29,088 bases of DNA from a virus: positions 1-29,088 of IMG/VR virus record IMGVR_UViG_3300025418_000941. One strand, given 5' to 3'. Position 1 is the stretch's first letter. Each line of letters starts with the position of its first letter. This document shows, one piece after another, positions 6,763 through 26,500 of the stretch. A program made the translations under genes and the position numbers. A model generated the notes under the pieces. That model did not search any database. It was not told the origin of the DNA and worked only from the letters and a program-made list of their open reading frames with translations.

Positions 6763-7896
6763 TTAGCCTGTGATCCAAGTCAATGGTTGCGCCCCATCAA
6801 CATAGTTCTTCAAGTCTTCCTCTAATTTTTCCATCTCGGCTTGTGCTTCTTGTTTTAAGGTTTCGCCGTTCAATGTGGTGCCACCTTGTGGACCAGCAAT
6901 AGATCCGAACTTGCTACGAGCTTCACCCACAATGCGTTTGGCAAAACTGTAAGCATAGTCTTGCAACCAGGGGAAAGCCATGTAGTCGTTTAACAGCATA
7001 GAGTCCGGTTTCTGATTGTAGATCCACAGCAACACAGTTTCGCTGGGAACATCGGTCATGGGGTTCCAAACTTGTGTGCTACGCAGATCATGTGTTAACA
7101 CTTGAGTGGCCTGTAGCGGTGTTACTGCTTTCACTGTTATGGTGGTGCCCAAGTAATCCACTGTATCAATTACATAATTGTTGTTATAGCCGCCCACATG
7201 ACAGTTGGCAATGGTGATAACATCACCAGGACTCACGGTCCACACTTGAGAAGTCACAATTGTAATGGTACTACCAGCAGTCAATCCCGATGAGTACAAG
7301 GCATTTAACGGTATGTAATTGTGATAGGCAGCCGGCATCTTTCTCACCAGAGTGATCTTTTTAGTCACTGGATTCCAAGTGTAGTTCATGAAGCCACCAA
7401 ACATCTTCATGGCCAACTTTTGATAGTCAGCAAACAGTTCGTAGTTGGTCAAGCCACCTACACGTCCAGCAACCAGCATGTAGGTATTCAGATAGCCACT
7501 GGCAAATGGCTCAAATTGACTGGCAGTGGTACCAGTTATACTACCAATACCGCGTCTGAACACTTGACGCACTTGCATGATTTCTTGCGGCAGTATGTAT
7601 TCTTGTACTTCGGGTAGTAGATCCAAAAAGGCATAGCTTTCTTCCACGCTGTTGGCGCTACGCTGACGATATTTGATCAAGGCCTGCTTTAGGGCCAGCT
7701 CGTAGTGTTCTTTGTCTAGTTCAACATCAACAATTTGATCACCTAGACGCAGCCTAATGTAGTCGTAAATTTCACTACGTTTGATGTTCAGTGCAACCAG
7801 CTGACTGTCATCAAAAGCGATTCGGCCTGGACCACCAAGATTGTCAGTTTGTATACTTAATGTATTGGGCTTTAACCCAGGTTGTAGTGTTGCCAT
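6763..7896 (-). CDS. gp13: Neck protein, gp13-like
   Basis: This 377-residue protein probably belongs to the neck that joins head to tail (T4 gp13 has 309 residues). The N-terminal helical part, 'SEIYDYIRLRLGDQIVDVELDKEHYELALKQALIKYRQRS' across about residues 36-78, resembles the conserved start of gp13-type proteins. 'LDLLPEVQEYILPQEIMQVRQVFRRGIG' follows. A beta-rich insert of about 60 residues ('VSPGDVITIANC...', near 220-280) precedes 'WIYNQKPDSMLLNDYMAFPWLQDYAYSFAK' and a charged helical tail. A GATAAATA element lies 19 nt upstream of the ATG, in the loop of a hairpin. In T4, gp13 and gp14 are adjacent and co-directional. Here they are separated by the 390-residue gene and lie on opposite strands. 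Confidence 0.72.
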   Translation of the reverse strand: MATLQPGLKPNTLSIQTDNLGGPGRIAFDDSQLVALNIKRSEIYDYIRLRLGDQIVDVELDKEHYELALKQALIKYRQRSANSVEESYAFLDLLPEVQEYILPQEIMQVRQVFRRGIGSITGTTASQFEPFASGYLNTYMLVAGRVGGLTNYELFADYQKLAMKMFGGFMNYTWNPVTKKITLVRKMPAAYHNYIPLNALYSSGLTAGSTITIVTSQVWTVSPGDVITIANCHVGGYNNNYVIDTVDYLGTTITVKAVTPLQATQVLTHDLRSTQVWNPMTDVPSETVLLWIYNQKPDSMLLNDYMAFPWLQDYAYSFAKRIVGEARSKFGSIAGPQGGTTLNGETLKQEAQAEMEKLEEDLKNYVDGAQPLTWITG

Positions 7897-9237: not shown

Positions 9238-10437
9238 ATGCCACGTCTCAGTCTCTGGCGGGAAAATTTCTCGAATGATTACAAATACATTGATCGCAAC
9301 ATCAGCGAACAATTCACTGTGGGCGGAACTGGCGTATTGGTACACAAATACCTTGGCACCAAAACTGATCCAACTTCTAACAATGCCGAAATTCCCAATT
9401 ACCCAAGTCAAAGTGCACAGAACATACAAGACTTGCTGTTTTTGGAAAACCGAGATCGCAAATACGATACCAGTGTGTACAGCATGCGCGGTATCTATCA
9501 AGTCAGTGACAGCGACTTTGACCTGACTCAGTTTGGTTTGTTCTTACAAACTGGAACTGTGTTTATGACCTTCCATATCAACGACATGGTGGCCACCTTG
9601 GGACGCAGAATAATGAGCGGCGACGTGTTGGAACTCATGCACCTTAAAGACTACGAAGCATTGAATGATTTGCCAGTGGCCTTGAAACGTTTCTTTATTG
9701 TGGGCGACTGCAGTAAAAGTAGTGAAGGTTTTAGCCCCACTTGGTGGCCGCATTTGTGGCGTTGCAAAATCAGTCCGTTGGTGGACAGCCAAGAGTACAA
9801 AGACATCTTGAACTTGGTAGAAACCACAACCGATGCTGCCGGCAACACAGTGCCTGTTGGTTCTTTGAGCACCTTGTTAAGCACCTACAACAAATACAGC
9901 AACATCAATGATGCTGTGATTGCACAGGCCGAAGCCGACTTGCCAATGAGCGGTTACGACACCACAGTGATTTATGTCAAACCACTGACACTGAACACCC
10001 AAGGCAACATAGGAGATCCATTGGGACTAAGCGCAGACAATATTTCTACCATAGATGCATCGCTCACAACCATCAGCAGCGACAAGAGCATAGTAAGCCC
10101 AGATCAAAAGGTAAAAGGTTATCTAGCCGGCGACGGACTAGCACCAAACGGATTGCCAGTGGCATCGGGTATCGCGTTCCCACCAAATCCCATTGCCGGC
10201 GACTACTGCCTGCGTGTGGACTATTTGCCAAATCGACTGTTCAGATATGACGGCAACAGATGGACCAAGGTTGAAGATGCGGTGCGTACCAACCTTACAC
10301 CCGGTGCCAGCGATAATCAAACTCAACGCAGCAAGTTTGTCAACAACACACGAACTCACACCAACAGTGGTGGCAACCAAGTACCTAATTTGCAGGGTCT
10401 TAGTAACGCACTCAAACCGCAAGCGGATAATCTATGA
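9238..10437 (+). CDS. gp14: Neck protein, gp14-like
   Basis: This 399-residue protein probably belongs to the neck/connector. The N-terminal 150 residues resemble gp14-type proteins of aquatic T4-like phages: 'RNISEQFTVGGTGVLVHKYLG' near 20-40, 'LLFLENRDRKYD' near 66-77, 'FDLTQFGLFLQTG' near 94-106, and 'SGDVLELMHLKDYE' near 127-140. A Trp/His-rich strand region 'PTWWPHLWRCKISPLVD' follows at 167-183. Near the end, 'AGDYCLRVDYLPNRLFRYDG' (320-339) then 'NRW' resembles the G-x-x-W segments of the sheath. The tail is Asn/Gln-rich. The ATG has an AGGA ribosome site. Its stop overlaps the start of the gp15-like gene (ATGA), indicating translational coupling. Confidence 0.78.
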   Translation: MPRLSLWRENFSNDYKYIDRNISEQFTVGGTGVLVHKYLGTKTDPTSNNAEIPNYPSQSAQNIQDLLFLENRDRKYDTSVYSMRGIYQVSDSDFDLTQFGLFLQTGTVFMTFHINDMVATLGRRIMSGDVLELMHLKDYEALNDLPVALKRFFIVGDCSKSSEGFSPTWWPHLWRCKISPLVDSQEYKDILNLVETTTDAAGNTVPVGSLSTLLSTYNKYSNINDAVIAQAEADLPMSGYDTTVIYVKPLTLNTQGNIGDPLGLSADNISTIDASLTTISSDKSIVSPDQKVKGYLAGDGLAPNGLPVASGIAFPPNPIAGDYCLRVDYLPNRLFRYDGNRWTKVEDAVRTNLTPGASDNQTQRSKFVNNTRTHTNSGGNQVPNLQGLSNALKPQADNL

Positions 10438-11825
10438 CCACAGCCTATACCACTTTTTTCTACGATAGACAAATACGTAGATTCTTACAACAATTCATTC
10501 GAATGATCAGCAACTTTCAAGTCGAAATGGGCAGTGATGCCGCTGGCAATCGAGTGCTACAGCGTGTGCCTGTGTTCTACGCCGATGCCAGTCGCCAGGC
10601 CAGCCAAATCTTGCGCGGCAACAGCGAGAATACCATCAAGAGTGTGCCGGCCATGGCTGTGCACATTGCTCAGATAGTGTATGATCGCGAACGAGTTCAA
10701 GACCCTACATTTGTCAGTACACTGAATGTTAGAACCAGAGAGTATGATCCTGCCACTGGTCAGTACACCAATCGACAGGGCGGTGCTTACACAGTCGAAC
10801 GTTTAATGCCAGTGCCGTATAAATTGACTTTGAAAGTGGATGTGTGGACCAGCAACACCGAGCAAAAACTCATGTTGTTGGAACAGCTGATGATTTTGTT
10901 TAATCCAGCACTGGAAATACAGAGCACCGACAACTATGTGGACTGGACCAGTTTGAGCTATGTGTTGTTGACCGACATCAGCTGGACCAATCGCAGTATT
11001 CCAGCCAGTACCGAAGAAACCATTGACATTGCATCCTTGACCTTTGAGTTGCCAATTTGGGTCAGTGCTCCAGCCAATGTCAAACAGCTGGGTGTGGTAC
11101 AAAAAATTGTCAGTACAGTATTTGATGCCAACGGTGCCCTGTTACCCGAATCATTCAACGACGATGGTAGCCCAGCATCAACATCTACACAGATGACCAA
11201 TGCAGCTTACACTTTCTTGAATTATAATGTATACTATCAAGGTAACACCTTGCAACTGATGAAAACCACAGCCGCTATAGAATTATCGCAATCACACCAC
11301 CAGTGGGCACCCTTGGTTGATCAGTACGGTAAACTAAAAAATGGCATAAGTCAAATTAGACTCATGCAGGCCAATGGATCTGAAGTGTTGGGCACAGTGG
11401 CCTATCACCCCACTGATGGCTCGTTGTTGCTGTTTACACCCTACAACGACACGCTGCCAGTAAATACTCTGGATCCAGTCAATGCCATCATTAACCCACA
11501 AAATGTCGACATTACCAGCACTGGTCTATTGAATCCTGCAGTTAGAACAAGATACTTAATCTTGCACGGCATTGGGTCAGTGTACAATACCGATGCTGCA
11601 GCCATATGGAACAATCACGGATATCCTCAGCTGATAGCCAACGCCAACGACATCATTGAGTACACTGGCACACACTGGATCGTGATATTCAACAGCCAAG
11701 ACATCAAAGATGTGCACTATGTTACAAATCTAAAAACTGGTACTCAGTATCGTTGGCAAGATGGCGGCTGGGCCAAGAGTGTTGAAGGCGAATACAGCGC
11801 CGGCAATTGGAGTTTTATTCTGTGA
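10434..11825 (+). CDS. gp15: Tail sheath stabiliser and completion protein, gp15-like
   Basis: This 463-residue protein probably caps the tail and joins it to the neck. The N-terminus 'TTFFYDRQIRRFLQQFIRMI' followed by 'NFQVEMG...RVPVFYADASR' parallels T4 gp15 (Y-F-Y-N-x-x-F-R-R-Y ... RVPITYAS). 'MPVPYKLTLKVDVWTSN' and 'QLMILFNPALEIQ' continue the match in the middle, as does 'DIASLTFELPIWVSAP' near 200-215. T4 gp15 has 272 residues, so about 190 are extra at the C-terminus. That part is beta-like, with 'NDIIEYTGTHWIVIF' and 'TGTQYRWQDGGWAKS', short Tyr/Trp motifs like those in gp14 and the sheath. It overlaps gp14 by 4 bp at its start and the Nudix gene at its end. Confidence 0.86.
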   Translation: MTTAYTTFFYDRQIRRFLQQFIRMISNFQVEMGSDAAGNRVLQRVPVFYADASRQASQILRGNSENTIKSVPAMAVHIAQIVYDRERVQDPTFVSTLNVRTREYDPATGQYTNRQGGAYTVERLMPVPYKLTLKVDVWTSNTEQKLMLLEQLMILFNPALEIQSTDNYVDWTSLSYVLLTDISWTNRSIPASTEETIDIASLTFELPIWVSAPANVKQLGVVQKIVSTVFDANGALLPESFNDDGSPASTSTQMTNAAYTFLNYNVYYQGNTLQLMKTTAAIELSQSHHQWAPLVDQYGKLKNGISQIRLMQANGSEVLGTVAYHPTDGSLLLFTPYNDTLPVNTLDPVNAIINPQNVDITSTGLLNPAVRTRYLILHGIGSVYNTDAAAIWNNHGYPQLIANANDIIEYTGTHWIVIFNSQDIKDVHYVTNLKTGTQYRWQDGGWAKSVEGEYSAGNWSFIL

Positions 11826-12417: not shown

Positions 12418-12425
12418 TATTTATC
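12418..12425 (-). promoter_or_regulatory. GATAAATA motif overlapping the glycosyltransferase stop
   Basis: Minus strand reads GATAAATA only 5 nt before the ATG of the small gene, and its first bases belong to the TGA stop of the glycosyltransferase gene. It matches the late motif, but the spacing would give an almost leaderless RNA, so activity is doubtful. Confidence 0.25.
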
Positions 12426-15120
12426 ACTCAACAGTAAAAGTGCTGGATCCTATGTGTTTGCATAACACAGTGGTATCTGCATATAATCGGAATCCGCGTG
12501 TGCGTGCCTTGGTACAGAAATCAATATCCTCAGATATGGTGTTGGCATGATCAATTGCTGAGTGATACACAAAATGTGGGTACGGAATAGCTCTAAATAC
12601 CTCGCCCTTGATCAAGGCGCAGCCAAAGCCGCAACTGGCAATTTCCACTAATCCACGCCCACGAATCTTTTCGTAAGGTATGTGTGTGACTCCACCGCGA
12701 TCATTGGGTTCATACACTTCCAAGGTATGACGTCCAGGAATACGCTGTATATACAGACCAGACACAATGTCACAATCATGTGCCAACAGTTTGGACAGCG
12801 TATCGGGCGGGAAGGCCATGTCGCTGTCAACTGCAAACAAGTAATCATAACCTTTGACCACCCAGTCAGCAATCAAGTTACGCACTTGGTCAACATTGTA
12901 GCCGTAAAAATACTGGAACACAGCTTGGTATCCTGCAGGTATGACTAAATCATAAATGCTCTTGAATGTTTCAGCTTCAATATTTCTAGCTGTGGGAATG
13001 GCAATCAAGATGGTTTTCTTTGCTTGTGCTGTAGGTGTTGGTGTTGCCACTATAGTTGGACTTGGTCGACGACTGATCACTGCAGCATTGATGTTTTGTG
13101 TAGTGGCATTGACCTTGTAGTCGTTCAAGGGATTGACATCGTTGTAGTTGTACACAATGTCTTGTAGGCAACGTACTTGATCGGGATCGGCTGCTTCGAT
13201 CAAACTGTAGAATGTGCTGCCATCGCCGCCAGCACCATACCAGTTGCCAGCATCGTCTTGGAAGTTGCTGTCGGGAATGCCTGTGATCAACCGCTGTTTA
13301 AATGTACGCAGATGTGTATAGGGCAATATCCAATTGAACTTGTGTTCGCGATAGGCTCGGCGTTGGCGTATGGCTTGTGGATAGGGCTGGCTGATCAGGG
13401 GAATGTTGTCGGCCATGCTCCAGCATGAACCGTAAGTGAATTCGGTATTGCCATCGTATACTGCATTGTAGTAAGTAAAGATGGTGTTGTCGTTGACTAG
13501 GCTGTCGTCGCCATCTAGTATCATGACAATGGATTCGGGATCGGGTAAAGATCTAAACACCGATAATTGGTTGGCCACTGCACCACGATTTTCAGTGTTT
13601 TCAATCACAGTGAATTTGGCTCTGATGTCATCGGGTAGTGCTGCCAGTGCGGCATGCAGGTTGGTTGATGTGGCATCAGTGCTGGCATCGTTTACCAGGT
13701 ACACTTGATAGTTGTCATAGTCTTGTGCTGCGATACTGTCAATACATCTGGCGATGTAATTTTCGCAGTTGTAGAAAGTGCTCACTACCACAATGGGCTG
13801 TTCGCGACCGGGGCGATACGATTCCAGTTCAATAGTGTTGTGAAATCTGCGGCCGTAAATCTTGTGTATACGGCGATTGATTTGACTGACCTCACGATAT
13901 TGGTCACGTGGCAAATATGCACCAATCTTTTTGTAAATGTGCTGTTGCCATTGTTGTGCCACGGTGCCCCATGAAGCTATGTCCTTGACAATGTTGCAGT
14001 AGTATTGTTTTTGCTGATGCAGGTAACGATCATTGTAGGCCCGTACAGTCATTTCAACAAACTTGTCAATTTGTGCATCTGTGTTGATATCAGGGAACAA
14101 GTTGTTGGGCTCTACTGGATAGTCTATTAGGTAGCAGGCACGCTCTAGTGCCACTTCTTCTAGCGCACCAAATCTACAGGTCAAGATTGGGGTATTGTAC
14201 AACAGGCTTTCCAGTGCACTGATACCGTATGTTTCAGGAAACATGGCCGGGTAAATGGTGTAACTGGCCTGTGCCAAAGTTTCAGCTACCACACGCTGTG
14301 GTACAACTCCAGTGAACTCCATGTCCAAGGCCAAATTGGCTGGATCTGAACTCATGGCACGCCATTCAACTTCTTGTGCATCAGGTGCTGCAGTTGAACC
14401 GAATTTGTAAAAGCCACCTAAGATTTTTAATCGTGCTCGAGGCAGCAGTTTTTTGACTCGAGGCCACACACGTTTGACCAAGACTGACATGCCTTTGCTG
14501 ACTGCAGCATTGTACACAAACAGGTCAGGATCCTTGGCCGTGATGTCTACTTCGGGTATGTAGTTCACTGCACCATTGCGTGTCATGAATATTTTGTTTT
14601 TGAGCACTTCATAGTTGCGACGACGACCATGCTGGCAGTTGGTCACATATGTGGTATGGAAGTCACTGAGCGTAAAGATGTCGGTGATGCGATTGCTGAC
14701 TGCCAATTCTTCAATTAGGTTGTCGCCCAAGCAAAAGGTGTCATGCATCCACAGTATACGCATCTTGGCGCGACTGACAATTCGATCATATAGATTCATA
14801 CCAGCATAGGGCATGGCACGACCATCTCCCAAGCGGCCATAGTCTCTGGGATCGGTAAACGGAATCACAGTTCTAGAACTGATGACTACATCAAACGTCC
14901 AGTCTTGTGCTAGTTCACCGAGCAGTCGATAAGTGACTCCGTCGTAGACACCAGGCCGTGCAGTATCCGAGCAGTTGTTGAAAACTGTAACGTCAAAACC
15001 CAGCTGTTGTAATTCACGTGCCATTAGTGTTGCGGCACTTTCGCTTCCACCCAAACCTTGTTTGGCCAAAGTAGACCCATCGTAGGGTATACCAATTATG
15101 TCGATGATGGCAATATTCAT
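12424..15120 (-). CDS. Three-domain glycosyltransferase (GT4-like + GT2-like + GT2-like)
   Basis: From ATG at 15120 this is an 898-residue protein. An ATG at 15153 would add 11 residues, but the fold starts at 'MNIAIIDIIG'; neither start has a clear ribosome site. Numbered from the longer start, domain 1 (about 12-410) is GT-B/GT4-like, with 'LGGSESAA' (34-41) and an E-x7-E motif 'ETYGISALE' (307-315). Domain 2 (about 453-680) is GT-A/GT2-like, with 'PIVVVSTFYNCENYIARCIDSI', 'LVNDASTDAT' and the metal-binding 'LDGDD' (546-550). A Pro/Thr-rich linker (697-710) leads to domain 3 (about 713-909), also GT-A-like, with 'AVDSDMAFPP' (774-783) and 'SEDIDFC' (874-880). All three carry intact key motifs, so it may add several sugars in succession. 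The acceptor is unknown. It is divergent from the carbamoyltransferase operon. Confidence 0.92.
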   Translation of the reverse strand: MNIAIIDIIGIPYDGSTLAKQGLGGSESAATLMARELQQLGFDVTVFNNCSDTARPGVYDGVTYRLLGELAQDWTFDVVISSRTVIPFTDPRDYGRLGDGRAMPYAGMNLYDRIVSRAKMRILWMHDTFCLGDNLIEELAVSNRITDIFTLSDFHTTYVTNCQHGRRRNYEVLKNKIFMTRNGAVNYIPEVDITAKDPDLFVYNAAVSKGMSVLVKRVWPRVKKLLPRARLKILGGFYKFGSTAAPDAQEVEWRAMSSDPANLALDMEFTGVVPQRVVAETLAQASYTIYPAMFPETYGISALESLLYNTPILTCRFGALEEVALERACYLIDYPVEPNNLFPDINTDAQIDKFVEMTVRAYNDRYLHQQKQYYCNIVKDIASWGTVAQQWQQHIYKKIGAYLPRDQYREVSQINRRIHKIYGRRFHNTIELESYRPGREQPIVVVSTFYNCENYIARCIDSIAAQDYDNYQVYLVNDASTDATSTNLHAALAALPDDIRAKFTVIENTENRGAVANQLSVFRSLPDPESIVMILDGDDSLVNDNTIFTYYNAVYDGNTEFTYGSCWSMADNIPLISQPYPQAIRQRRAYREHKFNWILPYTHLRTFKQRLITGIPDSNFQDDAGNWYGAGGDGSTFYSLIEAADPDQVRCLQDIVYNYNDVNPLNDYKVNATTQNINAAVISRRPSPTIVATPTPTAQAKKTILIAIPTARNIEAETFKSIYDLVIPAGYQAVFQYFYGYNVDQVRNLIADWVVKGYDYLFAVDSDMAFPPDTLSKLLAHDCDIVSGLYIQRIPGRHTLEVYEPNDRGGVTHIPYEKIRGRGLVEIASCGFGCALIKGEVFRAIPYPHFVYHSAIDHANTISEDIDFCTKARTRGFRLYADTTVLCKHIGSSTFTVE

Positions 15121-15195
15121 GCATTTATTTACTGTGTGCCGAAAGGGTATCATAAATTTTGATTCGAAAAAATATCTGAGTTGACATTTTTACCC

Positions 15196-15203
15196 TATAA
15201 ATA
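15196..15203 (+). promoter_or_regulatory. Perfect T4-type late promoter TATAAATA
   Basis: TATAAATA is the exact T4 late consensus, 28 nt upstream of the carbamoyltransferase ATG, with AGGA 8 nt before that ATG. A TTGACA at 15181-15186 lies nearby but has no matching -10 at 16-18 nt. Confidence 0.75.
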
Positions 15204-15230
15204 TTACTATCAATTAACAGGAATTTCAAT

Positions 15231-17054
15231 ATGTCAGTTTGGATAGCAGGTATCACACGCGGCCACAACGGGGCCGTTTGCCTTTTACGAGATGGTGAAA
15301 TTGTGTTTGCCATTGAAGAAGAGCGGTTGACTCGACTAAAGTATGACGGCTCGCCCATGGCAGCAATGACCAAGATTTTAGAGTATACTGATCGTCTAGA
15401 CTACATGGTCATGGCACATACTGATCAGCTGGGATCGCAAGGAAAAGTTGATTATACTGCAGAAGATGTGTACACCAGTCTAGCCAGAAAATTAAAATTA
15501 ATTGGGCCTATTAATAGAGACTTACCGCTAAATTCAAACAACACCATTGCCCATCCGCAAGTGATTGATTTGGGCACCATGCATCATCGTTTACATGCTG
15601 CGTGTGCGTTCTATCGTTCAGGATTTGATCAGGCCACAGCAGTTATAGTTGATGGCGCCGGAAGTGTATATTGGCGTGGAAATGATCGTCAGTGGGAAGT
15701 TGAAAGTATTTTTACCTGTAGTTACCCAAACATACTTGATACTGTGTTTGCACATAGAGCAGGCAAAGGCCCATGGGCCAGTAGCTATTTCAGCAAATTT
15801 AAAGATTCAGACGCACCACCAGATGCAAATACATTTGAGTTATTAGATGATGCATCTGTGGGCATTGTTAAAGCCTACGAAGCGGTGACATCATATTGCG
15901 GTTGGGGCGAAATTGAGGCTGGTAAGACCATGGGTTTATCACCATATGGGCGACCAAATGCAAATATTCCGCCCATCTATAACGATGCTGCCGGCTCTTG
16001 GATACACGGTAACCGAGATTTATTTGTCACCAACTACCCGCAAGCGGCTTATGTAAACATTGGAGAATGTCCAGAATTAGACGACCCAGCCGAAGTACGA
16101 GAATCTATAGTCGATGTGACCATGCTACAAAATCGCAGAGATCTTGCGTATGCAGTTCAAACACAAAGCCAAGAGGCGGTATTAAAAATTATACTCAAGG
16201 CTGTGGAAAAAACTGGATGTAAAAATGTTGTACTGTCTGGCGGTTATGGATTAAACTGTGTTGCCAACTATTACTACCTAACTAAACTAAATGAGCTGGG
16301 CATTAATCTTTATGTTGAGCCCATCAGCAGTGATGCAGGAACCAGCATTGGTGCCGCGCTGTTTGTTCACCATAGTATAATGAATACCGAGCGTCCAAAA
16401 CCTAGGGCATCAAGTTTGTACTTGGGTTTTGAATACACATATTCAGCTGATGATATTCGTGCTGTGGCCGAAAAGTATCAAGCTGAAACAAGCACGGTGA
16501 CCAATCATGATGTGGTGCAGTTGTTACGCAACCGTAACATTGTGGCGGTGTTCCGAGGTCGTAGTGAAAGTGGCCCTAGAGCACTGGGCAATCGCAGTAT
16601 CTTGTTTGATCCCACTGTGCCCAACGGCAAAGATTTTGTCAACAGCGTTAAACATCGAGAATATTTTAGACCTTTTGCCGGCAGTATCTTGCACGAACAT
16701 GTCAACGAGTGGTTTGACATGCGCGGCATGGAAGAGAGCCCGCACATGATGTATGCTGTCAACTGCCAACCCGGCAAAGGTGAGCTTGTTCCCAGCATTA
16801 TTCATGTGGACGGTACTTGCCGTATTCAAACAGTCAAGCGTGAACAAAATCCGCTATATTACGATTTGATATCAGATTTTTATGCCGAGTCGGGTGTTCC
16901 TGTTATTTTTAACACCAGCTTTAACCTGGGCGGCGAACCTTTAGTGGAAACACTGGATGATGCTGTACGCACTTTGGCCAATAGCGATATTGAATATCTG
17001 TATCTCATGGAATTCCAAACCCTAATTACTGTAAAAAATCATACTGGAGATTAA
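15231..17054 (+). CDS. O-carbamoyltransferase, NodU/CmcH/TobZ family
   Basis: This 607-residue protein spans the full family length. These enzymes make carbamoyl-adenylate from carbamoyl phosphate and ATP, then transfer the carbamoyl group to a hydroxyl, usually on a sugar. The N-terminus 'IAGITRGHNGAVCLLRDG' and 'AIEEERLTRLK' is the family start. 'MHHRLHAACAFYRSGF' with H118 and H122, D141 in 'VDGAGS', and D368 in 'ISSDAGTSIG' match the metal site of the Kae1-like domain. 'LSGGYGLNCVANY' (335-347) is typical. The YrdC-like C-terminal part has 'GRSESGPRALGNRSIL' (443-458) and 'YFRPFAGSILHE' (478-489), then 'FNTSFNLGGEP' (560-570). No key residue appears lost. It has its own perfect late promoter and is followed 1 nt later by the GT9-like gene. 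The acceptor is unknown. Confidence 0.94.
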   Translation: MSVWIAGITRGHNGAVCLLRDGEIVFAIEEERLTRLKYDGSPMAAMTKILEYTDRLDYMVMAHTDQLGSQGKVDYTAEDVYTSLARKLKLIGPINRDLPLNSNNTIAHPQVIDLGTMHHRLHAACAFYRSGFDQATAVIVDGAGSVYWRGNDRQWEVESIFTCSYPNILDTVFAHRAGKGPWASSYFSKFKDSDAPPDANTFELLDDASVGIVKAYEAVTSYCGWGEIEAGKTMGLSPYGRPNANIPPIYNDAAGSWIHGNRDLFVTNYPQAAYVNIGECPELDDPAEVRESIVDVTMLQNRRDLAYAVQTQSQEAVLKIILKAVEKTGCKNVVLSGGYGLNCVANYYYLTKLNELGINLYVEPISSDAGTSIGAALFVHHSIMNTERPKPRASSLYLGFEYTYSADDIRAVAEKYQAETSTVTNHDVVQLLRNRNIVAVFRGRSESGPRALGNRSILFDPTVPNGKDFVNSVKHREYFRPFAGSILHEHVNEWFDMRGMEESPHMMYAVNCQPGKGELVPSIIHVDGTCRIQTVKREQNPLYYDLISDFYAESGVPVIFNTSFNLGGEPLVETLDDAVRTLANSDIEYLYLMEFQTLITVKNHTGD

Positions 17055-17055
17055 C

Positions 17056-18180
17056 TTGACACGACCACGAGCATATTTCATTAACGGCGGCGCTGGCCGT
17101 GTGATTGCATCTATTCCAGCGTTTGAACAATTGGCCAAAGTGGACAAAGACTTTATCATTGTTTGCGAAGGCGGCAGCGACCTCTATCGTGGGCACCCAG
17201 TGTTAGACCGCAGAGTATTTGAACACTGGCACAAGGGACTGTTCAATGATCACCTCAAACATCGTGACTTGATCACCCCCGAACCCTACCGCGTATGGGA
17301 ATACTACAATCAAAAATGTAGTCTAGCGCAGGCTTTTGATATTGCCATCAATAACCAAGGTGTTCGCAATTTGCCGCCACCAAGTTTGCATTTAAACAAA
17401 ATGGAAATTGCAGATGCTTACAAAATAACACAGGATATTCGTAGCAAGCTGGGGTTTGAAAAATTAGTTGTTGTGCAGCCGTTTGGTCGTAGTGTCAGCA
17501 ACAGTGGCGGTTTGATTGTGGATCCCACATCAAGAAGTATTGCTCAGCAAGATCTAATAGAGCTAGTGAATATCTTGAAGAAAGACTATGGTGTTGTTGT
17601 CATGAGCGAATTGGGCGATGTGCTAGGCGACAGCAATCAGGGAGTGGCCCAGCCCAGAATTCCGCATATACGTATTTGGGCAGCGGTAATTGAGTTATCA
17701 GATCACTTCATTGGCTGTGACAGCGTGGGTCAACACATAGCTCGTGCACTGGGCAAAACTGCCACTGTGGTCACAGGATCAACATTTCCCATCAATGTAA
17801 GCTATCCCGATTGCAGCGATTTTGACATTATTGATGCTGGTGCTAAAACAAGACAGTATAGTCCCATTAGAATCTCCATGGAAGATCATATCGAGCGCAA
17901 CAACGACCAGTGCATGGAACTGACTTCAGACATGAAATCACAGATCTTGAAAAGTGCTAGAAAACGATTGGGTAAATCAGTTAAGTCAAGTGCAAAAAAT
18001 ACAACATTGTCACCAAATTATACCAATACACACTCGCACCATGAGCATGTTTTAACTTGCGACACTGCAGTAAGACCTGAACCTGGTTTTGCTATGAATC
18101 CGATTTCTCAAACTATAACTGCAGAAAACACCTACATGAAGCCAGCAGAGTCTATCACACTAACTGCTACCGGTGTTTAA
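17056..18180 (+). CDS. GT9-like (heptosyltransferase-type) glycosyltransferase
   Basis: This is a 374-residue protein with a TTG start, supported by GGAG six nt upstream; the start follows the carbamoyltransferase stop by 1 nt. 'NGGAGRVIASIPAFEQLAKV' (10-29) matches the GT9 N-terminal G-x-G-x-x-x-x-x-P-A-x-x-x-L pattern. 'VVVQPFGRS' (138-146) and 'HFIGCDSVGQHIARALGKTA' (217-236), followed by 'TGSTFPINVSYP', match the donor-binding half (D-S-x-x-x-H-x-A-x-A-L-G). The family transfers heptose or related sugars from nucleotide donors. The last 65 residues are Ser/Thr/Asn-rich and look like a flexible tail not usual in the family. It is co-transcribed with the carbamoyltransferase and may build or extend the glycan that enzyme modifies. 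Its TAA stop overlaps that of the convergent next gene. Confidence 0.82.
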   Translation: MTRPRAYFINGGAGRVIASIPAFEQLAKVDKDFIIVCEGGSDLYRGHPVLDRRVFEHWHKGLFNDHLKHRDLITPEPYRVWEYYNQKCSLAQAFDIAINNQGVRNLPPPSLHLNKMEIADAYKITQDIRSKLGFEKLVVVQPFGRSVSNSGGLIVDPTSRSIAQQDLIELVNILKKDYGVVVMSELGDVLGDSNQGVAQPRIPHIRIWAAVIELSDHFIGCDSVGQHIARALGKTATVVTGSTFPINVSYPDCSDFDIIDAGAKTRQYSPIRISMEDHIERNNDQCMELTSDMKSQILKSARKRLGKSVKSSAKNTTLSPNYTNTHSHHEHVLTCDTAVRPEPGFAMNPISQTITAENTYMKPAESITLTATGV

Positions 18181-18917
18181 CCAGTCCACTGCTGTCGAGA
18201 TTGGCTTAGTAGTTGATTTGGAGCTAAAGAAGCTGATGGATTTACATAAGCCGATGTCAAGAATATAAATGTGGTGCCACCACTATTAATATTGCCATCG
18301 GTTGACAGCGATACACCGCCGCTGGTGTTGATAGTTAGGAATGCGGTAACTGAACTGGTTACTGGGGTAGACATCCAGGTTATTGGCACTGAAGTAAATG
18401 CCGATCCCGTAGTAGGATAATTCCAAGTTGATACTATAGCCAAGCCACCATCGTAGTCAGGCATGGTTGTAGTGGTTGCAATGGTTAACTCATTTATAGG
18501 ATGTCGACGAGCATCAGCAAAGACCACTTGTCCTTCCATGTACGGAGTCCAAGATCCGGTTAAAGGTGTATTAAATGTCCAAGGACTATTGCCATTGTAA
18601 CTGGCAGCATTGTAAATAGCAAAATCTAATTCAATGATACGTCCCTGATACCAGTAGTCCATGCTAAAATTAAGACTACCACGAACCAGCCGCGAATTGG
18701 CCAATTGTAAATTTGCTGACCACGGATTGGTGGGATTTCCGTGTCCGTATAGTACTACATTGTCTGCAGGGTAACCCGATGGAACAAACTCAAGCGAGTC
18801 TTGAGTTTGACTTATAATATTACCCCACCCAGCAACAAAGACTGGGTTACCCGTAACAGTTATTTGTAGTTCCTGATTCGGATTAGGGTAACTCGGATTT
18901 AATTCACCAATTGGCAT
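18177..18917 (-). CDS. Probable tail or fibre-associated protein of unknown fold
   Basis: I do not recognise this 246-residue protein. It is rich in Ser, Thr, Asn and aromatics, contains no Cys and few Lys, and looks beta-structured throughout, as many virion surface proteins do. Visible segments are 'YPNPNQELQITVTGNPVFVAGWGNIIS'-type strands near the start (4-30), 'MDYWYQGRIIELDFAIYNAAS' mid-protein, and 'VVFADARRHPINELTI' near 130-145. It is the last gene of the minus-strand run led by the short collagen-like fibre. GGACGG lies before the ATG, 12 nt after the cysteine-rich gene. A role in the fibre/adhesin apparatus is inferred from position only. Its stop shares the palindrome TTAA with the convergent GT9-like gene. 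Confidence 0.78.
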   Translation of the reverse strand: MPIGELNPSYPNPNQELQITVTGNPVFVAGWGNIISQTQDSLEFVPSGYPADNVVLYGHGNPTNPWSANLQLANSRLVRGSLNFSMDYWYQGRIIELDFAIYNAASYNGNSPWTFNTPLTGSWTPYMEGQVVFADARRHPINELTIATTTTMPDYDGGLAIVSTWNYPTTGSAFTSVPITWMSTPVTSSVTAFLTINTSGGVSLSTDGNINSGGTTFIFLTSAYVNPSASLAPNQLLSQSRQQWTG

Positions 18918-18929
18918 ATACCGTCCAGG

Positions 18930-21134
18930 TTACGCGGCTGCTACAGTACCAACAATCTTGGCATTGGCGCTAGAAATAACCACAATACCCACAATGGTAT
19001 CAGCTGATGTAGATGTTGTAACTGTGGCTGCATAAGTGCCATTGTTAAATGTAATACCCGGAGTTGCAGTTTGTCCCACAATTGACAACGTGACTGTGGT
19101 AGCTATACGCTGTCCTGCATAGTTATACACATTGACTGTAATGTTACCGTTTATGTTACTACCAGTATACACAAAACTAGTGGTAGGTGCAGTAATTATC
19201 AAGGTCTCGCCGACACTGGCTGAAATAACATCAATGTAATTTGATGTCACGTTAGATGTCAAATTAGCAGTAGTATAAACTGTGTTAGCAGTCCAACCAC
19301 CATTGTTGTTAATAGTTGTTGTATCTACCACTTGTGTAGCCCAACGACCGTTGTGATCTTTAAACAATCTGCTGGCAATGTAAGGCATGGTGCTTTGATA
19401 TTGATACAGCCCGGTTGTGGCATTCAGGGTCAACACAATGTCGTTACCAAATGTAGCACCAGCATATACTGTGTTCCAGTAGGTGTCCAAGGGGCAGAAA
19501 TATCTAGGTGCATAGGTTGCTAGTGATACATAGCCTAGGTAATAGGCATTGAATCCAACATCATCTAGGCTCCAGCTCCATACTCTAAACATGGCACCAG
19601 CACCAGAATCCAAGTTAAATGTATTAGCAATACTCACTAAACCGGTACCGTTGGTGTTATACACGCCCATGTGCAGGCGTTTGACACTGTTGGTGTCTAC
19701 GCTGTACCACACACGATTGACAGTTTGTCTACGGAAGCTGGCATTGTTCAATTGACTGTTAGCAGTGCCGTTGTGGCCCAGTGCAGTATAGATTGATGTA
19801 ATCTGCGCTGCGGTCATTGACTGTAAAGTGTAGGCTTGAGCTGCTGCTGCACCAGTTGACGAGGTAAGAGTGTATCTACTGATGGTCATGGTATTAGCAG
19901 TATCTGCACCACCAAATGCAATGTGGTAGAATCTATAGGCCACTGTGTCATCTTGGTCCGGCTGTGATGGAATTATTAGTCCACTAATACCTTTCTTGAT
20001 GTTGTAAACCACTGTGGTCACAGTGGTATTGGCATTATATTGACGCAAGGTCAAACGCACGTTTCCAGATGTAGTGGTGTCTACCCCTTGTACACCGCCG
20101 TTAAGAGCATTGTAGTGGAAGTACCATTTGAACGGAGGTGCATTTTGTATCAATGTTCTAACACCGTATTCAGCAGTACCGCTGGCAACGCCATAGTTAA
20201 CGTAATTCCCGTAAACATTATTTGAGCAGACCCCGCTAAAACTACATGTAGAAGCAACACATAGATTGACCCGACAAGTAGTACCATAGTATAATTGATC
20301 AGCTATTGAATTTGATTGTAATCCGGCAATGGTGCATTGAGCAGGAAAATTAACAAGAGCATAGTTACAACTACCTCCTCCCCCTTGATTACATGGGCAA
20401 ACGGCATTCGGTACTGTATAATTTGTGGGTGTGTCACCGTAGGTGTATTCAGGCATGGGGAAACAATTGGCATAGCAATTGGCACAGCATCCTTGTACGA
20501 ATGCCAATTGATACATGTTTGATTGTGGCACAAAGCAAGAAAAATTCCCACCAGTGTCCTGTACTATCAAATAATTATACATGGCACAACAGTTAGTGGC
20601 GTTATTGCAACCTGAAATTGAATAACAACTAATGCTGCCGTACGGCAATGCTTGTGTGTTAGTGTTACTGGGTGTAGGACATACCAATGTAATAATCCCA
20701 TTCCATGCAGCACAGGTTTGGCAACTACCAGGCAAAACGCAGCCGGTTAGGCAAGCAGTGCTGGTGCTGGTGTTTATTTGATAACATGCTGGGCCTTGGC
20801 AAGTTTGATTTTTAAAAGTTGTAATATTATTAACGCTTTGGTTAGTGCCATAATACAAAAAGCAGCCGGCTGCGTACTCACCACTGAATCTACTGCCCAA
20901 TAAGTCAAATGTGCTACCTTGGTATGTGGGTTCAAACAAGCTGTCTACTGCCAGCGGGGCCACCGTACAGCCCAAATCAATACAGGCTGGATTATATTGG
21001 TAGTTGCCTACCTGTTCCAAACTGTTAGAGACTGTGTAAAATGCTCCATTGATGGTGTAATTGGTGCCACGATAACCATACTGTATGGTTTTTTCTGTTG
21101 GTGGTGGTAGATATCTTTGATAAAACTTTGCCAT
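18930..21134 (-). CDS. Cysteine-rich virion-type protein with beta-rich C-terminal half
   Basis: This 734-residue protein is of unknown family. Residues 51-303 hold 27 cysteines in C-x2-C, C-x4-C, CC and C-x-C spacings (for example C138/C141, C182-C183, C216-C217-x2-C220-x3-C224, C246-x-C248). The other 481 residues hold only one, in 'RYFCPLD'. The N-terminus starts 'MAKFYQRYLPPPTEK'. From about 320 the protein looks like a beta-sandwich fibre protein: aromatic strands such as 'WYFHYNALNGG', then 'VYNIKKGISGLII', and an Ig-like end ('ITVNVYNYAGQRIATTVTLSIVG') near 675-700. GGAG precedes the ATG, which overlaps the stop region of the 75-residue gene. Context suggests an adhesin or fibre part. 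The Cys-rich segment could be disulfide-bonded or metal-binding. Confidence 0.82.
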   Translation of the reverse strand: MAKFYQRYLPPPTEKTIQYGYRGTNYTINGAFYTVSNSLEQVGNYQYNPACIDLGCTVAPLAVDSLFEPTYQGSTFDLLGSRFSGEYAAGCFLYYGTNQSVNNITTFKNQTCQGPACYQINTSTSTACLTGCVLPGSCQTCAAWNGIITLVCPTPSNTNTQALPYGSISCYSISGCNNATNCCAMYNYLIVQDTGGNFSCFVPQSNMYQLAFVQGCCANCYANCFPMPEYTYGDTPTNYTVPNAVCPCNQGGGGSCNYALVNFPAQCTIAGLQSNSIADQLYYGTTCRVNLCVASTCSFSGVCSNNVYGNYVNYGVASGTAEYGVRTLIQNAPPFKWYFHYNALNGGVQGVDTTTSGNVRLTLRQYNANTTVTTVVYNIKKGISGLIIPSQPDQDDTVAYRFYHIAFGGADTANTMTISRYTLTSSTGAAAAQAYTLQSMTAAQITSIYTALGHNGTANSQLNNASFRRQTVNRVWYSVDTNSVKRLHMGVYNTNGTGLVSIANTFNLDSGAGAMFRVWSWSLDDVGFNAYYLGYVSLATYAPRYFCPLDTYWNTVYAGATFGNDIVLTLNATTGLYQYQSTMPYIASRLFKDHNGRWATQVVDTTTINNNGGWTANTVYTTANLTSNVTSNYIDVISASVGETLIITAPTTSFVYTGSNINGNITVNVYNYAGQRIATTVTLSIVGQTATPGITFNNGTYAATVTTSTSADTIVGIVVISSANAKIVGTVAAA

Positions 21135-21378: not shown

Positions 21379-22395
21379 TTAGTAAGTGGTATAGGTCAAA
21401 GTCACATACAAATCACTGGCATACAATCCATTATTGGTAACAACGATATAAATGTAATCATTGCTGGTTGTGGTGCTCCAAGGTGATGTATTGCTGGCTG
21501 GACCTGTTCCAGTAAATGATATATTTGATACAGTTACATCATTCAATAAAATATTTAGCTGAACGGGCTGTGTACCCGATGCTAGCACATAGGCTGTGGC
21601 CGAACTCACAGCAATTCTGCGGCCGGGATACCATCTTGTGGTATACGAAGTGCTGTAGCCCACTGGCAGCGTGCCCGGAGTATAAACTGTGTTGCTCAAG
21701 GATGGATTGGATCCAATTGATGCTCCGTTGGCCAGTAGACTCAGCACGTTGCCCACGTTGCTGTTGAACACTATGTTGCCCGACAACACCGGACTGGTCA
21801 TGGTTATTGTGCCTGCAGGATCAGTGGTGATCTTGGCATTGCCTATGCCAAAATTTACATTGGCTGAATTAAGACTACCGCCTACGTAGACGTTGCCCAC
21901 AATGCCAGCACCACCTGCAATTTGTAAGGCACCAGTAGTGGTACTGGTACTGGAAGTGGTATTGGTTGTAAACAACACATTGTTGGAGTTTAAGTTTCCA
22001 CCTCCGGAACTGCCAGTATAACCTTGTATGCCTTGACTGCCGGTATAGCCATTGAAACCGGCTGATCCAGTGTAACCTTTACTGCCAGTGTAACCCACAC
22101 TACCGGCGTAACCAGGAGCGGTACTGGCTGAACCAGTGTAGCCCGTGGATCCAGTATAACCTATTGAACCGGTATAGCCAGGAGCAGTACTGGCTGATCC
22201 GGTGTAACCTGTTGAGCCAGTGTAGCCCACACCCTGTGATCCGGTGTAACCCACTGATCCAGTGTAACCGGTACTGCCAGCATAACCCACAACCGGAGTC
22301 ACTGCTGCAATCCAGCCCACACCGTTCCAGGTCCAGGTCATGGTACCGTAAACATACGTTTGGCCTATCGAGGTTGGGACTGGAAAGTTTATCAT
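21379..22395 (-). CDS. Short collagen-like tail fibre protein
   Basis: This is a 338-residue fibre. The N-terminal 35 residues ('FPVPTSIGQTYVYGTMTWTW...GW') form a short Y/W module like that at the start of the giant fibre. Residues 37-130 are Gly-X-Y triplets, mostly GYT-GSx, broken by two 'STAP' insertions inside a tandemly duplicated segment. One 'STSTTTGA' fibre module follows at about 149-175, then a beta-rich C-terminal domain ending 'YIYIVVTNNGLYASDLYVTLTY', probably the trimeric tip. The triplets suggest a collagen-like triple helix without proline hydroxylation. A GGTAAATA element lies 23 nt upstream of the ATG, so this gene may head the operon with the next three minus-strand genes. 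Confidence 0.87.
   Translation of the reverse strand: MINFPVPTSIGQTYVYGTMTWTWNGVGWIAAVTPVVGYAGSTGYTGSVGYTGSQGVGYTGSTGYTGSASTAPGYTGSIGYTGSTGYTGSASTAPGYAGSVGYTGSKGYTGSAGFNGYTGSQGIQGYTGSSGGGNLNSNNVLFTTNTTSSTSTTTGALQIAGGAGIVGNVYVGGSLNSANVNFGIGNAKITTDPAGTITMTSPVLSGNIVFNSNVGNVLSLLANGASIGSNPSLSNTVYTPGTLPVGYSTSYTTRWYPGRRIAVSSATAYVLASGTQPVQLNILLNDVTVSNISFTGTGPASNTSPWSTTTSNDYIYIVVTNNGLYASDLYVTLTYTTY
22006..22287 (-). repeat. Gly-X-Y repeat block of the short fibre
   Basis: Codons for residues 37-130 encode GYT-GSx hexads, an 18-bp unit, with an imperfect tandem duplication of the stretch that ends in 'GSASTAPGY'. Nucleotide words such as ccagtgtaacc and ccggtgtaacc recur, shared with the giant fibre gene. 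Confidence 0.9.
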
Positions 22396-22457: not shown

Positions 22458-23546
22458 TTATTTAGATGATGTAAACGCAGGCCAATATAGTGAAGTTGAA
22501 TTGATTCCAACGCCTGCAATCGTGCCAGCAGGGCTTATGGCCGTGCTTTCTATAAAATAAGTCGTGGTGGTGACTCCGCCCATGGCAGTAATGGTTGACC
22601 AAGTGACGCCATCCGGAGAAGTGGTATACACCGCATAGTATGGAGTAGCAACAGCGTACCAGCCCACAGCTACCCATAAACTAAGAACCGAATCCCAAAT
22701 CACTGAGGTAAAAATGTATTTTGTTGCAGACAAGTTGGCCGCAGCAGTCCATGACACACCATTATTTGAACTGTATGAGAACCATGGTATGTTGGTGCCC
22801 GAAAATCCTATCCATACCATTTGGCCAGCTGGGTTAGCGGCTAGACAGCGTGTGGTCAAATTGGTTGCAGTTGAATTTAGGGTAGTTGGAGTTGTCCATG
22901 TAGTGCCATTATCTGAACTGTACGAGTATACTGGATAACTACTGGCATTGGTACCAACTAGACATAAGTTTGTGCCTGACCCCAGTGCAGCAGATTTTGG
23001 TGTAAAAGTGGTGGCTGTTCCCACTGTTTGAGCCGCACTCCACGTGCTTCCATTTGTAGAAGTATAATACTGTCCGGTGCTGTTACCATTCAATTGACCA
23101 AATGCATAAAAAGTGCCACTGCTATTACAAATTACAGGAACCACATAGGTTTTAACACTACTAGATATACTGGCATAAGTCCACGATGTACCATTGGTGC
23201 TGTAGTAGGCAAAAGGATAGTAGGTGCTAAGAAATCCCACAGACACCATCAACCCAGACGAATTCACTGCTAAACCGCCTATGTTGATATTAAAAGCTCC
23301 CACAGTTGTTGGAGTGGGCCAGCTGGCACCAGTAGTGCTATTTGCATACACTAGATAATTGTTGCCGTCATACCCGGTGGCCACAAATCGGTTCAAGGTC
23401 GGACTCCAGACAACGTTGTACATGGCATACAAGCTAGTACTGCCATTCATGAGTGCTGGCGCATTAAATCCATTGAATCCGGTGGGTCTGGCACCAAACC
23501 CAAGCGCCCGCATAGACCCAGATCCCACTGAAATTATATTTGGCAT
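22458..23546 (-). CDS. Six-bladed Asp-box (BNR-like) beta-propeller protein
   Basis: ATG at 23546 is preceded by AAGGATC, giving 362 residues. The upstream ATG at 23591 lies inside the end of the giant fibre gene and has no ribosome site. Six S-x-(D/N)-G-x-x-W-type motifs occur at about residues 70-76, 116-122, 163-169, 210-217, 259-266 and 310-316, spaced 46-50 residues. This is the layout of a sialidase-type Asp-box propeller. Between them strands such as 'FVATGYDG', 'MVSVGF', 'TFYAFG' and 'WVAVGW' recur. No sialidase catalytic residues (FRIP motif, Arg triad) are apparent, so a carbohydrate-binding or structural tip is more likely than an enzyme. It follows the giant fibre by 10 nt in the same transcript. 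Confidence 0.83.
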   Translation of the reverse strand: MPNIISVGSGSMRALGFGARPTGFNGFNAPALMNGSTSLYAMYNVVWSPTLNRFVATGYDGNNYLVYANSTTGASWPTPTTVGAFNINIGGLAVNSSGLMVSVGFLSTYYPFAYYSTNGTSWTYASISSSVKTYVVPVICNSSGTFYAFGQLNGNSTGQYYTSTNGSTWSAAQTVGTATTFTPKSAALGSGTNLCLVGTNASSYPVYSYSSDNGTTWTTPTTLNSTATNLTTRCLAANPAGQMVWIGFSGTNIPWFSYSSNNGVSWTAAANLSATKYIFTSVIWDSVLSLWVAVGWYAVATPYYAVYTTSPDGVTWSTITAMGGVTTTTYFIESTAISPAGTIAGVGINSTSLYWPAFTSSK

Positions 23547-23556
23547 TGCTTGATCC

Positions 23557-26500
23557 TTAAGCAAACTTGGTTTGGCTGGCAAACACCACATACGCAGCTG
23601 ATCCAGTTTTGGTCACTGTGTACGAATAAATGTCAATTGAATTCGCGTTACCCGAGCTGGGTGCTGTGCCGTTTTGCCACTTGGGCGTAACAGCAGATCC
23701 GTCAACTTGGAATGCCGAAGCATAGTAGGCAGTAGCACCCTGTGTGACCATGAACGCAAAGCTCACTGATTGGCCGGTTGCTAGAGCACTGTTCAACAAG
23801 GTACTGGAACTAAACGACAAGTTCACAGTCCAGTTGGCCGAAGCATTGGCAGTATAATACAGCACCGACTGACTGTTGATGTAGTAGTTGATGGTACCAG
23901 TTGCGGCTGTGGCTGATACTGTGGTGGTTTCAGCCATGTTGGTCATCACCGTGGCAAACGAACTGGCACTGCCGTTGAATGTCTGTGTAGATGTCCAAGT
24001 GCTGCTGATGACCGGAACGCCATTGGCATAGTAGTAACCCGAACTGTACACACTACCAGCAAATATGTTGCCAGCAATGCCAGCACCACCCGAGACCTGT
24101 AGTGCACCTGTAGTGGTGCTGGTACTTGTAGTATTATTACTGGTAATGATCTGTAGTGCGGTTGTACCTGAGAATGAGCCAGTCGCACCTATTGATCCGG
24201 TATAACCTATTGGGCCAGTGGCACCTATTGATCCGGTATAACCAATTGATCCAGTATAACCTGTCGTGCCAGTAGTACCAACGGATCCAGTATATCCTAC
24301 TGATCCATTATAGCCCACACTACCGGTATATCCCACTGATCCAGTATAACCAGTATTCAAATAGGGAGTACCGTTGGCATAAAAATGACGATCTGAGTAA
24401 ATGTTGCCGGCAAAAATGTTACCAGTAACACCCACACCGCCAGCAACTACTAGAGCACCTGTTGTTGTGCTTGTACTAGCAGTTACAGTCACGATCGACA
24501 CGTTGCCAGTGGGTCCACTGATGACCATGGGCTCAGAATAAGTTTCGCCGCCAACTGGGCCAGTGAAGGTCCAGAATTGCAAGCCGCCGCCGACTGTGCC
24601 TTGCAAGGCGCCACCACCATTGCTGTTGGCAGTCATTTGTAAACCGCCACCTGATGTGGTAAAGCTACCGGTGCCCACGCTGTTCAGTGTTAGTGAAATA
24701 GCAGAGTCGCTGGCCTGTGATATAGTACCTATACTGGCTTTTGAACCAGTTATAGTTAACCCGCTTGCAAACACGTTACCAGCAAAAATGTTACCAGTAA
24801 CACCCAAACCACCCGCCACAGTCACAGCACCTGTAGTGGTACTGGTGCTAGGGGTTGCAGTTCCTCCGCCATTAAATGGAGTCGCAGCATTGTAAGTAAC
24901 TGATCCCGAGTTAGTCAATGAATAATTATTAGTGCTAGAATCAGTTATATAATTGCCGGAACTAGCAACACTTAATAACAATGTAGTATTAGGAATTGCT
25001 GTTAACGGTTGGGTAGGTGGAGTAAATGACGAAGTATATACCGCAGTTCCGTTAACAAACCGGAAATTAGTCATATATCCACGAAGAGATTGATTTCCGC
25101 TGCTTCCGTCTGATCTAGCAATATATTCTGGTGCACCACTGTCGTATATACTTCCAGCGTAAGTATATGTTGTGCCCTTTTGCCCATTCAAATACATGTT
25201 GAATGAACTACCGTTCCGTACTACTGCCACGTGGTACCATGTATTTGCAGTTAGTGCAGGTAATGTTGAATCATCATTGGGATTAATTGCCCAAGAAGAA
25301 GAACTATCTGCAACTTGTAGGGTCATTCTATTAGAAGAACTGTATACACGCCACGCTATTCCTGCATAGGTTCCTACTTCTCGTTTACCGTAAAGACCGT
25401 TTTCTACTCCCAGTGTTGTTAAGTATACCCAAGCTTCTATTGTAAAATTATTGCTACCTAATACAAATGCTGAATTATTTGCATAGGTCAAATAATTACT
25501 ACCGCTAAAACTTAAACTGCCACCAGTAGCGAAACCAGTGGGTGCGACCACGCTGACACCAGTAGTTACCACATTACCAGCAATGCCAGCACCACCTGAG
25601 ACCTGTAGTGCGCCTGTTGTGGTACTTGTACTAGGTGTGGTGTTGCTTATGATAACTTGTTGTGCAGTTGTACCTGAGAATGTGCCTGCACTTCCTGTGT
25701 AACCCACGCTTCCAGTATAGCCCACGCTACCTGAATATCCCACTGATCCAGTGTACCCAGTGCTGCCAGTGTAACCCACATTGCCTGTGGTGCCCGTTGA
25801 GCCGGTATAACCTATCGATCCGGTATAACCAGCTGATCCAGCGTAACCCACGTTGCCTGTGGTGCCCACACTACCGGTATACCCAACGCTTCCAGTGTAA
25901 CCTGTGGTGCCTGTTGAGCCGGTGTATCCAACACTTCCAGTATAACCCACCGATCCATTATAGCCCTGTGATCCAGTGTAGCCAGTTGATCCGTTATATC
26001 CCGTGCTGCCGGTATAGCCGGTTGCACCTGCGCTGGCATATGATACGCCGTTGGCCCAGAACACACCTGATGTGGTAATGACACCAGCCGTGGTGGAAAT
26101 ATTACCCGATGCCACTATGGCGTTAGCATATTCAGTACTGGTTATGGTTTCATAGTTCTGTGTGGTGATGTTGCCAGTGACCACCAAGTTACCACCCACA
26201 TACAAGTTGCCGGTAATACCTACTCCGCCTGCTACAGTCACAGCACCTGTTGTGGTACTGGTACTGACTATTGGTGCACTGGCTCCATTAAATGGTGTTG
26301 CAGCATTGTATGCAACCGATCCCACATTGGTCAATGTTAAATTATTAACACTGGAATCGGTTATATACGCACCTGAACTGGCCACATTTAACAATAGGGC
26401 TGTGTTTGCGATGGCAGTTAAGGGTTGTGTGCTTGGTGTGAAATTGGTGGTGTATACTGCGGTACCATTTACAATTCTTAAATTACTAATATATCCTGTA

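Follow-up and report, generated by a model that had tools for sequence, protein, structure and literature searches.

TibC heptosylates adhesin proteins and carries a four-cysteine iron finger and an N-terminal beta-barrel (PMC4358343), and WapO-type carbamoylation acts on the core HepII of Pseudomonas lipopolysaccharide (LPS) (PMC8005017). In cyanophages, a carbamoyltransferase was once assigned to pyrimidine synthesis (PMC9146016). Here we describe a carbamoyltransferase (CbT) gene and an adjacent gene for a GT9-like glycosyltransferase (GT9), together called the pair, in a 29,088-nucleotide fragment of a T4-like large phage (positions 1 to 29,088 of IMG/VR record IMGVR_UViG_3300025418_000941; the whole fragment is referred to as the window). 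The structural genes of the window resemble those of the jumbo phages PA5oct, Atu_ph07 and Phosso. The enzymes are of known kinds; the new part is their fixed pairing inside fibre operons, and we propose, with moderate confidence, that they add carbamoyl-heptose to the phage tail fibres late in infection.

The closest CbT loci in IMG/VR were pooled with those of four cyanophages and of the window, and dereplication at 85% CbT identity left 51 pair loci. Each homologue search retained the 80 closest out of at least 599 relatives, and the statements on pairing refer to this clade. A GT9 gene lay on the same strand in all 51 loci, with CbT identities reaching down to ∼46–48%, in keeping with the joint action of the two enzymes suggested by an earlier sequence-only reading of this DNA. 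When GT9 was used as the seed, CbT was found at 77 of 79 loci, and at 47 of 47 where at least 4 kb of flanking sequence was available on both sides. A stop-start overlap of −4 nt was frequent among the pair loci, and the comparison as a whole indicates that CbT and GT9 are an ancient two-gene unit. A GT9 search of 84,980 cellular genomes returned ten relatives, every one paired with CbT; since the same fibre genes are present on the contigs of most of them, they are probably viral in origin.

Upstream of CbT lies a perfect TATAAATA, a box of the T4 late promoter type. This sequence occurs once in the window against a chance expectation of 1.4, so that the single copy alone is not significant. 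Genome-wide tests drew on another contig of this phage, 210 kb long, that holds the identical region and may itself be incomplete (IMGVR_UViG_3300006120_000012, hereafter G001). There, NATAAATA is present in the 70 nt upstream of the starts of 28 of 179 genes, compared with 4.2 in shuffled sequence and 6 in antisense (binomial P ∼3e-15), with a spacing of mostly 26–39 nt before the start; the genes behind it are mostly structural and include those for sheath, tube and the gp13-like protein. From this enrichment we conclude that the late promoter class is real, which confirms the claim of the sequence-only reading that the pair shares the promoter class of the structural genes and supports its prediction of late expression. 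Among relatives in which CbT comes first, three of four have NATAAATA upstream of CbT at about the same distance as in the window. It also precedes 13 of the 49 GT9 genes of the pair loci, and almost none of their heptose-pathway and oxygenase genes. In the window a gap of 1 nt separates the CbT stop from the GT9 start, a TTG codon served by a GGAG ribosome-binding site, and the two genes look like one transcript.

CbT carries N and C carbamoyltransferase domains over the whole protein (PF16861, 3.6e-58; PF02543, 1.6e-24), the N-terminal one being Kae1-like, which is the two-domain architecture of NodU and TobZ; its homologues in the PDB are VtdB, NovN, GdmN and TobZ. The metal motif HHxxHA is intact at residues 118–123, and the C domain holds GRSESGPRALGNRS, which agrees with the carbamoyl-adenylate loop GR[SM]ExGPRALG[NH]RS (here GRSExGPRALGNRS). 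At the specificity positions of TobZ, G421 and R423 are kept and W408 is replaced by V. Judged by its domains and motifs, the protein is a NodU/TobZ-type O-carbamoyltransferase. In the tree, the GT9-linked CbTs group together in a single clade (support 0.906), whose sister group consists of split CbTs near thymidylate synthase. In S-RIM44 and S-SCSM1, the enzyme is divided into separate C-domain and N-domain open reading frames (ORFs) beside that gene (L100 4998-6616; L101 4187-7766).

The GT9-like protein belongs to PHROG 8954 (8.7e-133), a family with matches to Pfam Glyco_transf_9 in 21 of its 38 members (PF01075; best 2.5e-6), the window protein itself having no such match and a weak one (0.002) to the NCBIfam model of heptosyltransferase III. 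Searches against PDB sequences with phmmer and with profiles gave nothing useful, and the fold search alone was informative. The AlphaFold2 (AF2) model (predicted local distance difference test, pLDDT, 84; predicted template modelling score, pTM, 0.82) begins directly with a Rossmann-type strand, and its best Foldseek matches in the PDB are GT9 enzymes, namely 3tov, WaaC (2h1h, 3.3e-8) and WaaF (1psw, 7.4e-8), together with TibC (1.4e-7). The modelled protein thus has a predicted GT-B fold like that of WaaC and WaaF. Its C-lobe motif is kept (D222-S-V-G-Q-H227). The alignment contains a single invariant cysteine, C221, and the protein lacks both the four-cysteine iron finger and the N-terminal beta-barrel of the BAHT enzymes, the autotransporter heptosyltransferases TibC and Aah. 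G001 also encodes a canonical GT9 that retains the GD motif, in a second sugar cluster that comprises a GDP-mannose dehydratase-like protein, a C-methyltransferase and a GT4 enzyme (182107-187884; L096 11107-16884).

The virion-gene setting of the pair, as described by the sequence-only reading for the window, proved to be conserved across many phage lineages. A fibre-type gene lies within three genes of the pair in 47 of the 51 loci, so the homologues are not confined to early operons, a distribution that the same reading had named as one that would count against it. Unbiased clustering of the neighbours gave a usual order of tail fibre (PHROG 9851, 6.6e-89), small tail proteins, about three glycine-rich proteins (PF21722), a tail-assembly-chaperone-like protein (PF16778, PHROG 4912), GT9 and CbT. 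In the cyanophages S-SSM7, Sf-FS3, S-CAM1 and P-SSM2 the pair sits between fibre and neck genes. Gene content on the 3′ side is highly variable between loci. Several lineages (L061, L073, L022, L054 and others) have one or two copies of a ∼300-residue family between GT9 and CbT, which has no Pfam match and appears by eye to be SGNH-hydrolase-like. Genes for a 2-oxoglutarate-Fe(II) oxygenase and a tryptophan halogenase-like protein recur in the pair operon (L002, L003, L038, L046), which raises the possibility that fibre residues are hydroxylated or halogenated.

We take ADP-heptose as the probable donor. In 25 of the 51 loci, one or more genes of the set encoding HldE, HldD, GmhB and a related phosphatase lay within 10 kb of the pair, and an HldE-like PfkB kinase was present in 13 of 26 long pair-bearing contigs. 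The best NCBIfam models of the HldE, HldD and GmhB candidates are ADP-heptose enzymes, with scores mostly below the strict cut-offs. A phosphoheptose isomerase (GmhA) was considered for the clusters of the P-SSM2 type; the annotated protein (NC_006883.2 239311-239655) resembles a capsule-biosynthesis phosphatase more closely (TIGR01689, a weak match) and was not counted. Cyanophages that carry the pair encode heptose genes, and the LPS of marine Synechococcus contains no heptose (PMC4515613), so an LPS core is an unlikely destination for heptose made by such phages in these hosts. Host assignment by psbA among the long contigs identified one cyanophage only.

We envisage that this T4-like phage transcribes CbT and GT9 late, as one unit with coupled translation. 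Working in the host cytoplasm, the GT9-like enzyme would move heptose from an ADP-heptose-type donor to a tail-fibre protein, probably at serine or threonine. CbT would then convert carbamoyl phosphate and ATP to carbamoyl-adenylate and carbamoylate a hydroxyl of the heptose. Carbamoyl-heptose on fibres could alter adhesin binding, solubility, or sensitivity to proteases or debris. The acceptor would on this proposal be a virion protein, and we infer that it is the fibres rather than the sheath, which narrows the 'fibres or sheath' of the sequence-only reading.

Several points weigh against this proposal. The fibre protein is a presumed acceptor, and the fibres of the window are not homologous to the glycine-rich and chaperone-like proteins that flank the pair elsewhere. 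Regions adjacent to fibre genes may be insertion hotspots, where proximity alone does not amount to function. The Foldseek TM-scores to GT9 enzymes are moderate (0.43–0.60). The claim that the key motifs are intact held for CbT and for the C-lobe of GT9 and failed for the N-lobe GD of the latter, which contains the catalytic aspartate (Asp13 in WaaC) and appears as an invariant GR with Arg15 (NGGAGR), in an alignment judged by eye; in a profile comparison with the canonical GT9 that the phage also encodes, the C-lobe alone aligned, so that the apparent loss of the aspartate rests on inspection. Finally, the 210 kb of G001 held no PfkB or nucleotidyltransferase match to HldE and no convincing HldE, GmhB or HldD, with generic epimerases only, and a donor supplied by the host must therefore be assumed.

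The third sugar-acting gene of the window encodes a three-domain glycosyltransferase (triple GT). Its GT4 and GT2 domains were recognized by Pfam and its third, glycosyltransferase-like domain by PHROG and by the topology of an AF2 model of middling confidence (pLDDT 73, pTM 0.52). Because aligned relatives begin at residue 12, the start is probably at 15120 and not at 15153. There are at least 387 relatives; linkage to the pair was absent from all 78 that were examined beyond this phage, and we rejected both a general linkage and the single three-gene cassette of the sequence-only reading. Among the pair loci, only L008 and L017, which are near the lineage of the window, carry a relative. A collagen-like or laminin-G-like gene is nearby in 27 of 48 triple GT loci with an upstream gene. 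We regard the triple GT as a phage glycosyltransferase family of its own, associated with fibres, that happens to lie next to the pair; separately, it would probably extend or add other glycans on the same fibre class. A role as a collagen hydroxylysine glycosyltransferase, prompted by a Foldseek match to the human collagen galactosyltransferase COLGALT1, was also set aside: other tandem GT2 enzymes score better, the TM-scores are low, and lysine makes up 0.5% of the collagen fibres.

The features of the window are collected in Table 1. All three sugar-acting ORFs of the sequence-only reading are present and intact, and the profile searches and structure predictions that it had proposed as a check assigned their families through Pfam and PHROG, with AF2 models of the GT9-like protein and the triple GT. 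The pair faces a block of collagen-like and laminin-G fibre genes. In the larger of the two collagen-like fibres, threonine occupies the Y position in 80 of 142 Gly-X-Y triplets. The tail sheath protein, at 1068 residues, is far longer than T4 gp18 and has a conserved C domain at 958–1057. G001 further encodes GTP cyclohydrolase I, QueD-like, QueE-like and QueC proteins (L087 15386-16129, 17712-18194, 18833-19678; L097 16228-16845), a preQ0 pathway that suggests 7-deazaguanine modification of DNA. Defence systems gave no match, and the window yielded no Rfam match and no tRNA.

Table 1. Features of the window, in order of position.
Feature	Position	Strand	Basis or remarks
Tail sheath, gp18-like	2432..5638	-	Pfam PF17482; PHROG 10581 5e-194
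Neck protein, gp13-like (head-tail adaptor Ad2)	6763..7896	-	PHROG 211 3.1e-28
Tail sheath stabiliser, gp15-like	10434..11825	+	PHROG 11196 and 227; relatives in PA5oct, Atu_ph07, Phosso
Three-domain glycosyltransferase (GT4 + GT2 + GT2-like), 909 aa	12424..15153	-	Pfam/PHROG, AF2 topology, Foldseek; separate module
T4-type late promoter box TATAAATA	15196..15203	+	28-35 nt upstream of CbT start
O-carbamoyltransferase (NodU/TobZ type), 607 aa	15231..17054	+	Pfam, PHROG, PDB homologues, motifs
GGAG ribosome-binding site of GT9-like gene	17046..17049	+	Within CbT 3′ end
GT9-like (heptosyltransferase-fold) glycosyltransferase, 374 aa, TTG start	17056..18180	+	PHROG 8954, AF2, Foldseek
246-aa protein, no family match	18177..18917	-	Convergent with GT9 gene, fibre block; weak homologue at same place in L017
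734-aa Cys-rich protein, fibre block	18930..21134	-	Same-place homologues in L008, L017; no Pfam/PHROG match
Collagen-like fibre protein, 338 aa, candidate acceptor	21379..22395	-	Pfam Collagen 2.4e-9; PHROG tail fiber; Gly-X-Y, Thr commonest at Y
377-aa BNR-like protein, fibre block	22458..23591	-	Pfam BNR_2 5.6e-4, below cut-off
Collagen-like tail fibre with laminin-G domains, 1517 aa, candidate acceptor	23557..28110	-	Pfam Collagen 1.9e-58, Laminin_G_3 8.7e-32; PHROG tail fiber

The pair could instead act late on the host surface, altering LPS or another glycan and so changing the phage's own receptor, with the result that progeny avoid debris and infected cells; it would then travel with the fibres through co-evolution of receptor and fibre, and a fibre linkage would be equally expected. 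GT9 enzymes classically build the LPS core, carbamoyl-heptose is known in Pseudomonas LPS, the cyanophage 'LPS genes' are read in this way in the literature (PMC9602691), and a canonical GT9 lies in the second sugar cluster of the same phage. A host-surface target is the main rival to fibre decoration; we nevertheless regard it as the less likely of the two, given the heptose-free LPS of marine Synechococcus, the little time that a late promoter leaves for surface remodelling, the distance of the GT9-like family from LPS heptosyltransferases and its confinement to viruses, and the frequent position of the pair directly 3′ of a fibre-assembly-chaperone-like gene. That the pair is non-essential cargo (a 'stuffer' or moron) in a fibre-adjacent insertion hotspot, with no fixed target, was raised for cyanophage LPS clusters (PMC3037559) and would fit both the variable gene content after the pair and the fact that the triple GT and the pair of the window are modules that are separate elsewhere. 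Strict pairing in 51 of 51 divergent loci, frequent gene overlap, kept CbT catalytic motifs and late promoters, however, argue that the two genes are selected jointly and make cargo a highly improbable explanation.

A role in DNA modification, in which CbT would carbamoylate phage DNA at a modified base or nucleotide and GT9 would glycosylate the base, has its precedent in a proven phage carbamoyltransferase of 5-hydroxymethylcytosine (5hmC) (PMC8670742), which shares the Pfam families of the window CbT, and in the split CbTs beside thymidylate synthase, which are sister to the pair clade. The 5hmC enzyme shows linkage to a homologue of thymidylate synthase of the dCMP type, whereas none lies near the window pair; the profiled loci have no thymidylate synthase beside the pair (that of P-SSM2 is ∼7.5 kb off), and the phage's own, distant enzyme has the dUMP-type PFNIASY with Asn177 in place of the Asp of dCMP enzymes. 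The promoter is late and not early, the preQ0 pathway offers a separate route to DNA modification, and CbTs beside group-1 glycosyltransferases occurred on unmodified contigs in the eLife 2021 study (PMC8670742). With no sign of 5hmC-type modification, the sequence-only reading was upheld in setting DNA aside, and we give this possibility hardly any weight.

Returning to decoration of the fibres, we put forward more tentatively, as a possibility that is finely balanced, that the pair represents a widespread system dedicated to virion glycosylation: phages of aquatic habitats may make O-linked carbamoyl-heptose on their own tail fibres by means of a virus-specific pair, and some may bring a full ADP-heptose pathway since their cyanobacterial hosts have no heptose in their LPS. 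Many cyanophage 'LPS genes' would then be fibre-decoration genes, host recognition would be affected by carbamoyl-heptose on adhesins, and recombinant fibres made without the pair enzymes may miss part of their surface. The proposal offers a testable alternative to the view of aquatic-phage sugar genes as host-surface genes or stuffer DNA. To our knowledge, carbamoylated heptose on adhesins is an undescribed virion modification, and a literature search of titles and abstracts returned no paper linking heptosyltransferase, carbamoyltransferase and fibres in this sense.

Phage-encoded glycosylation of mycobacteriophage virions was reportedly described by Freeman et al. in 2023 (cited in PMC10955285); it resembles our proposal in being encoded by the phage and differs in hosts and enzymes, and we know of no heptose or carbamoyl chemistry in that system. 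The cyanophage 'LPS' clusters of P-SSM2 and S-SSM7 (PMC3037559) hold the same GT9-CbT pair (T4-GC 302/303), followed by HldE/HldD-like genes; they were earlier read as host-surface or stuffer genes, and are read here as fibre decoration. The viral CbT is like the O-carbamoyltransferases NodU, TobZ and WapO in its two-domain architecture and active-site motifs, and WapO is held to carbamoylate a heptose, as we propose for the viral enzyme; unlike these enzymes, the viral clade is always paired with a GT9 gene, and its substrate is presumed. The GT9-like protein shares its fold and the C-lobe D-S-x-x-x-H motif with the LPS heptosyltransferases WaaC and WaaF, and differs from them in being viral only, in the apparent loss of the N-lobe catalytic aspartate, in its tail-fibre location and in its late promoter. 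With TibC and Aah it has in common a GT-B/GT9-type fold, an adhesin-linked gene position and, in relatives, a likely ADP-heptose donor, whereas it is set apart from them by the missing iron finger and beta-barrel, by its CbT partner and by fibres as the presumed acceptor.

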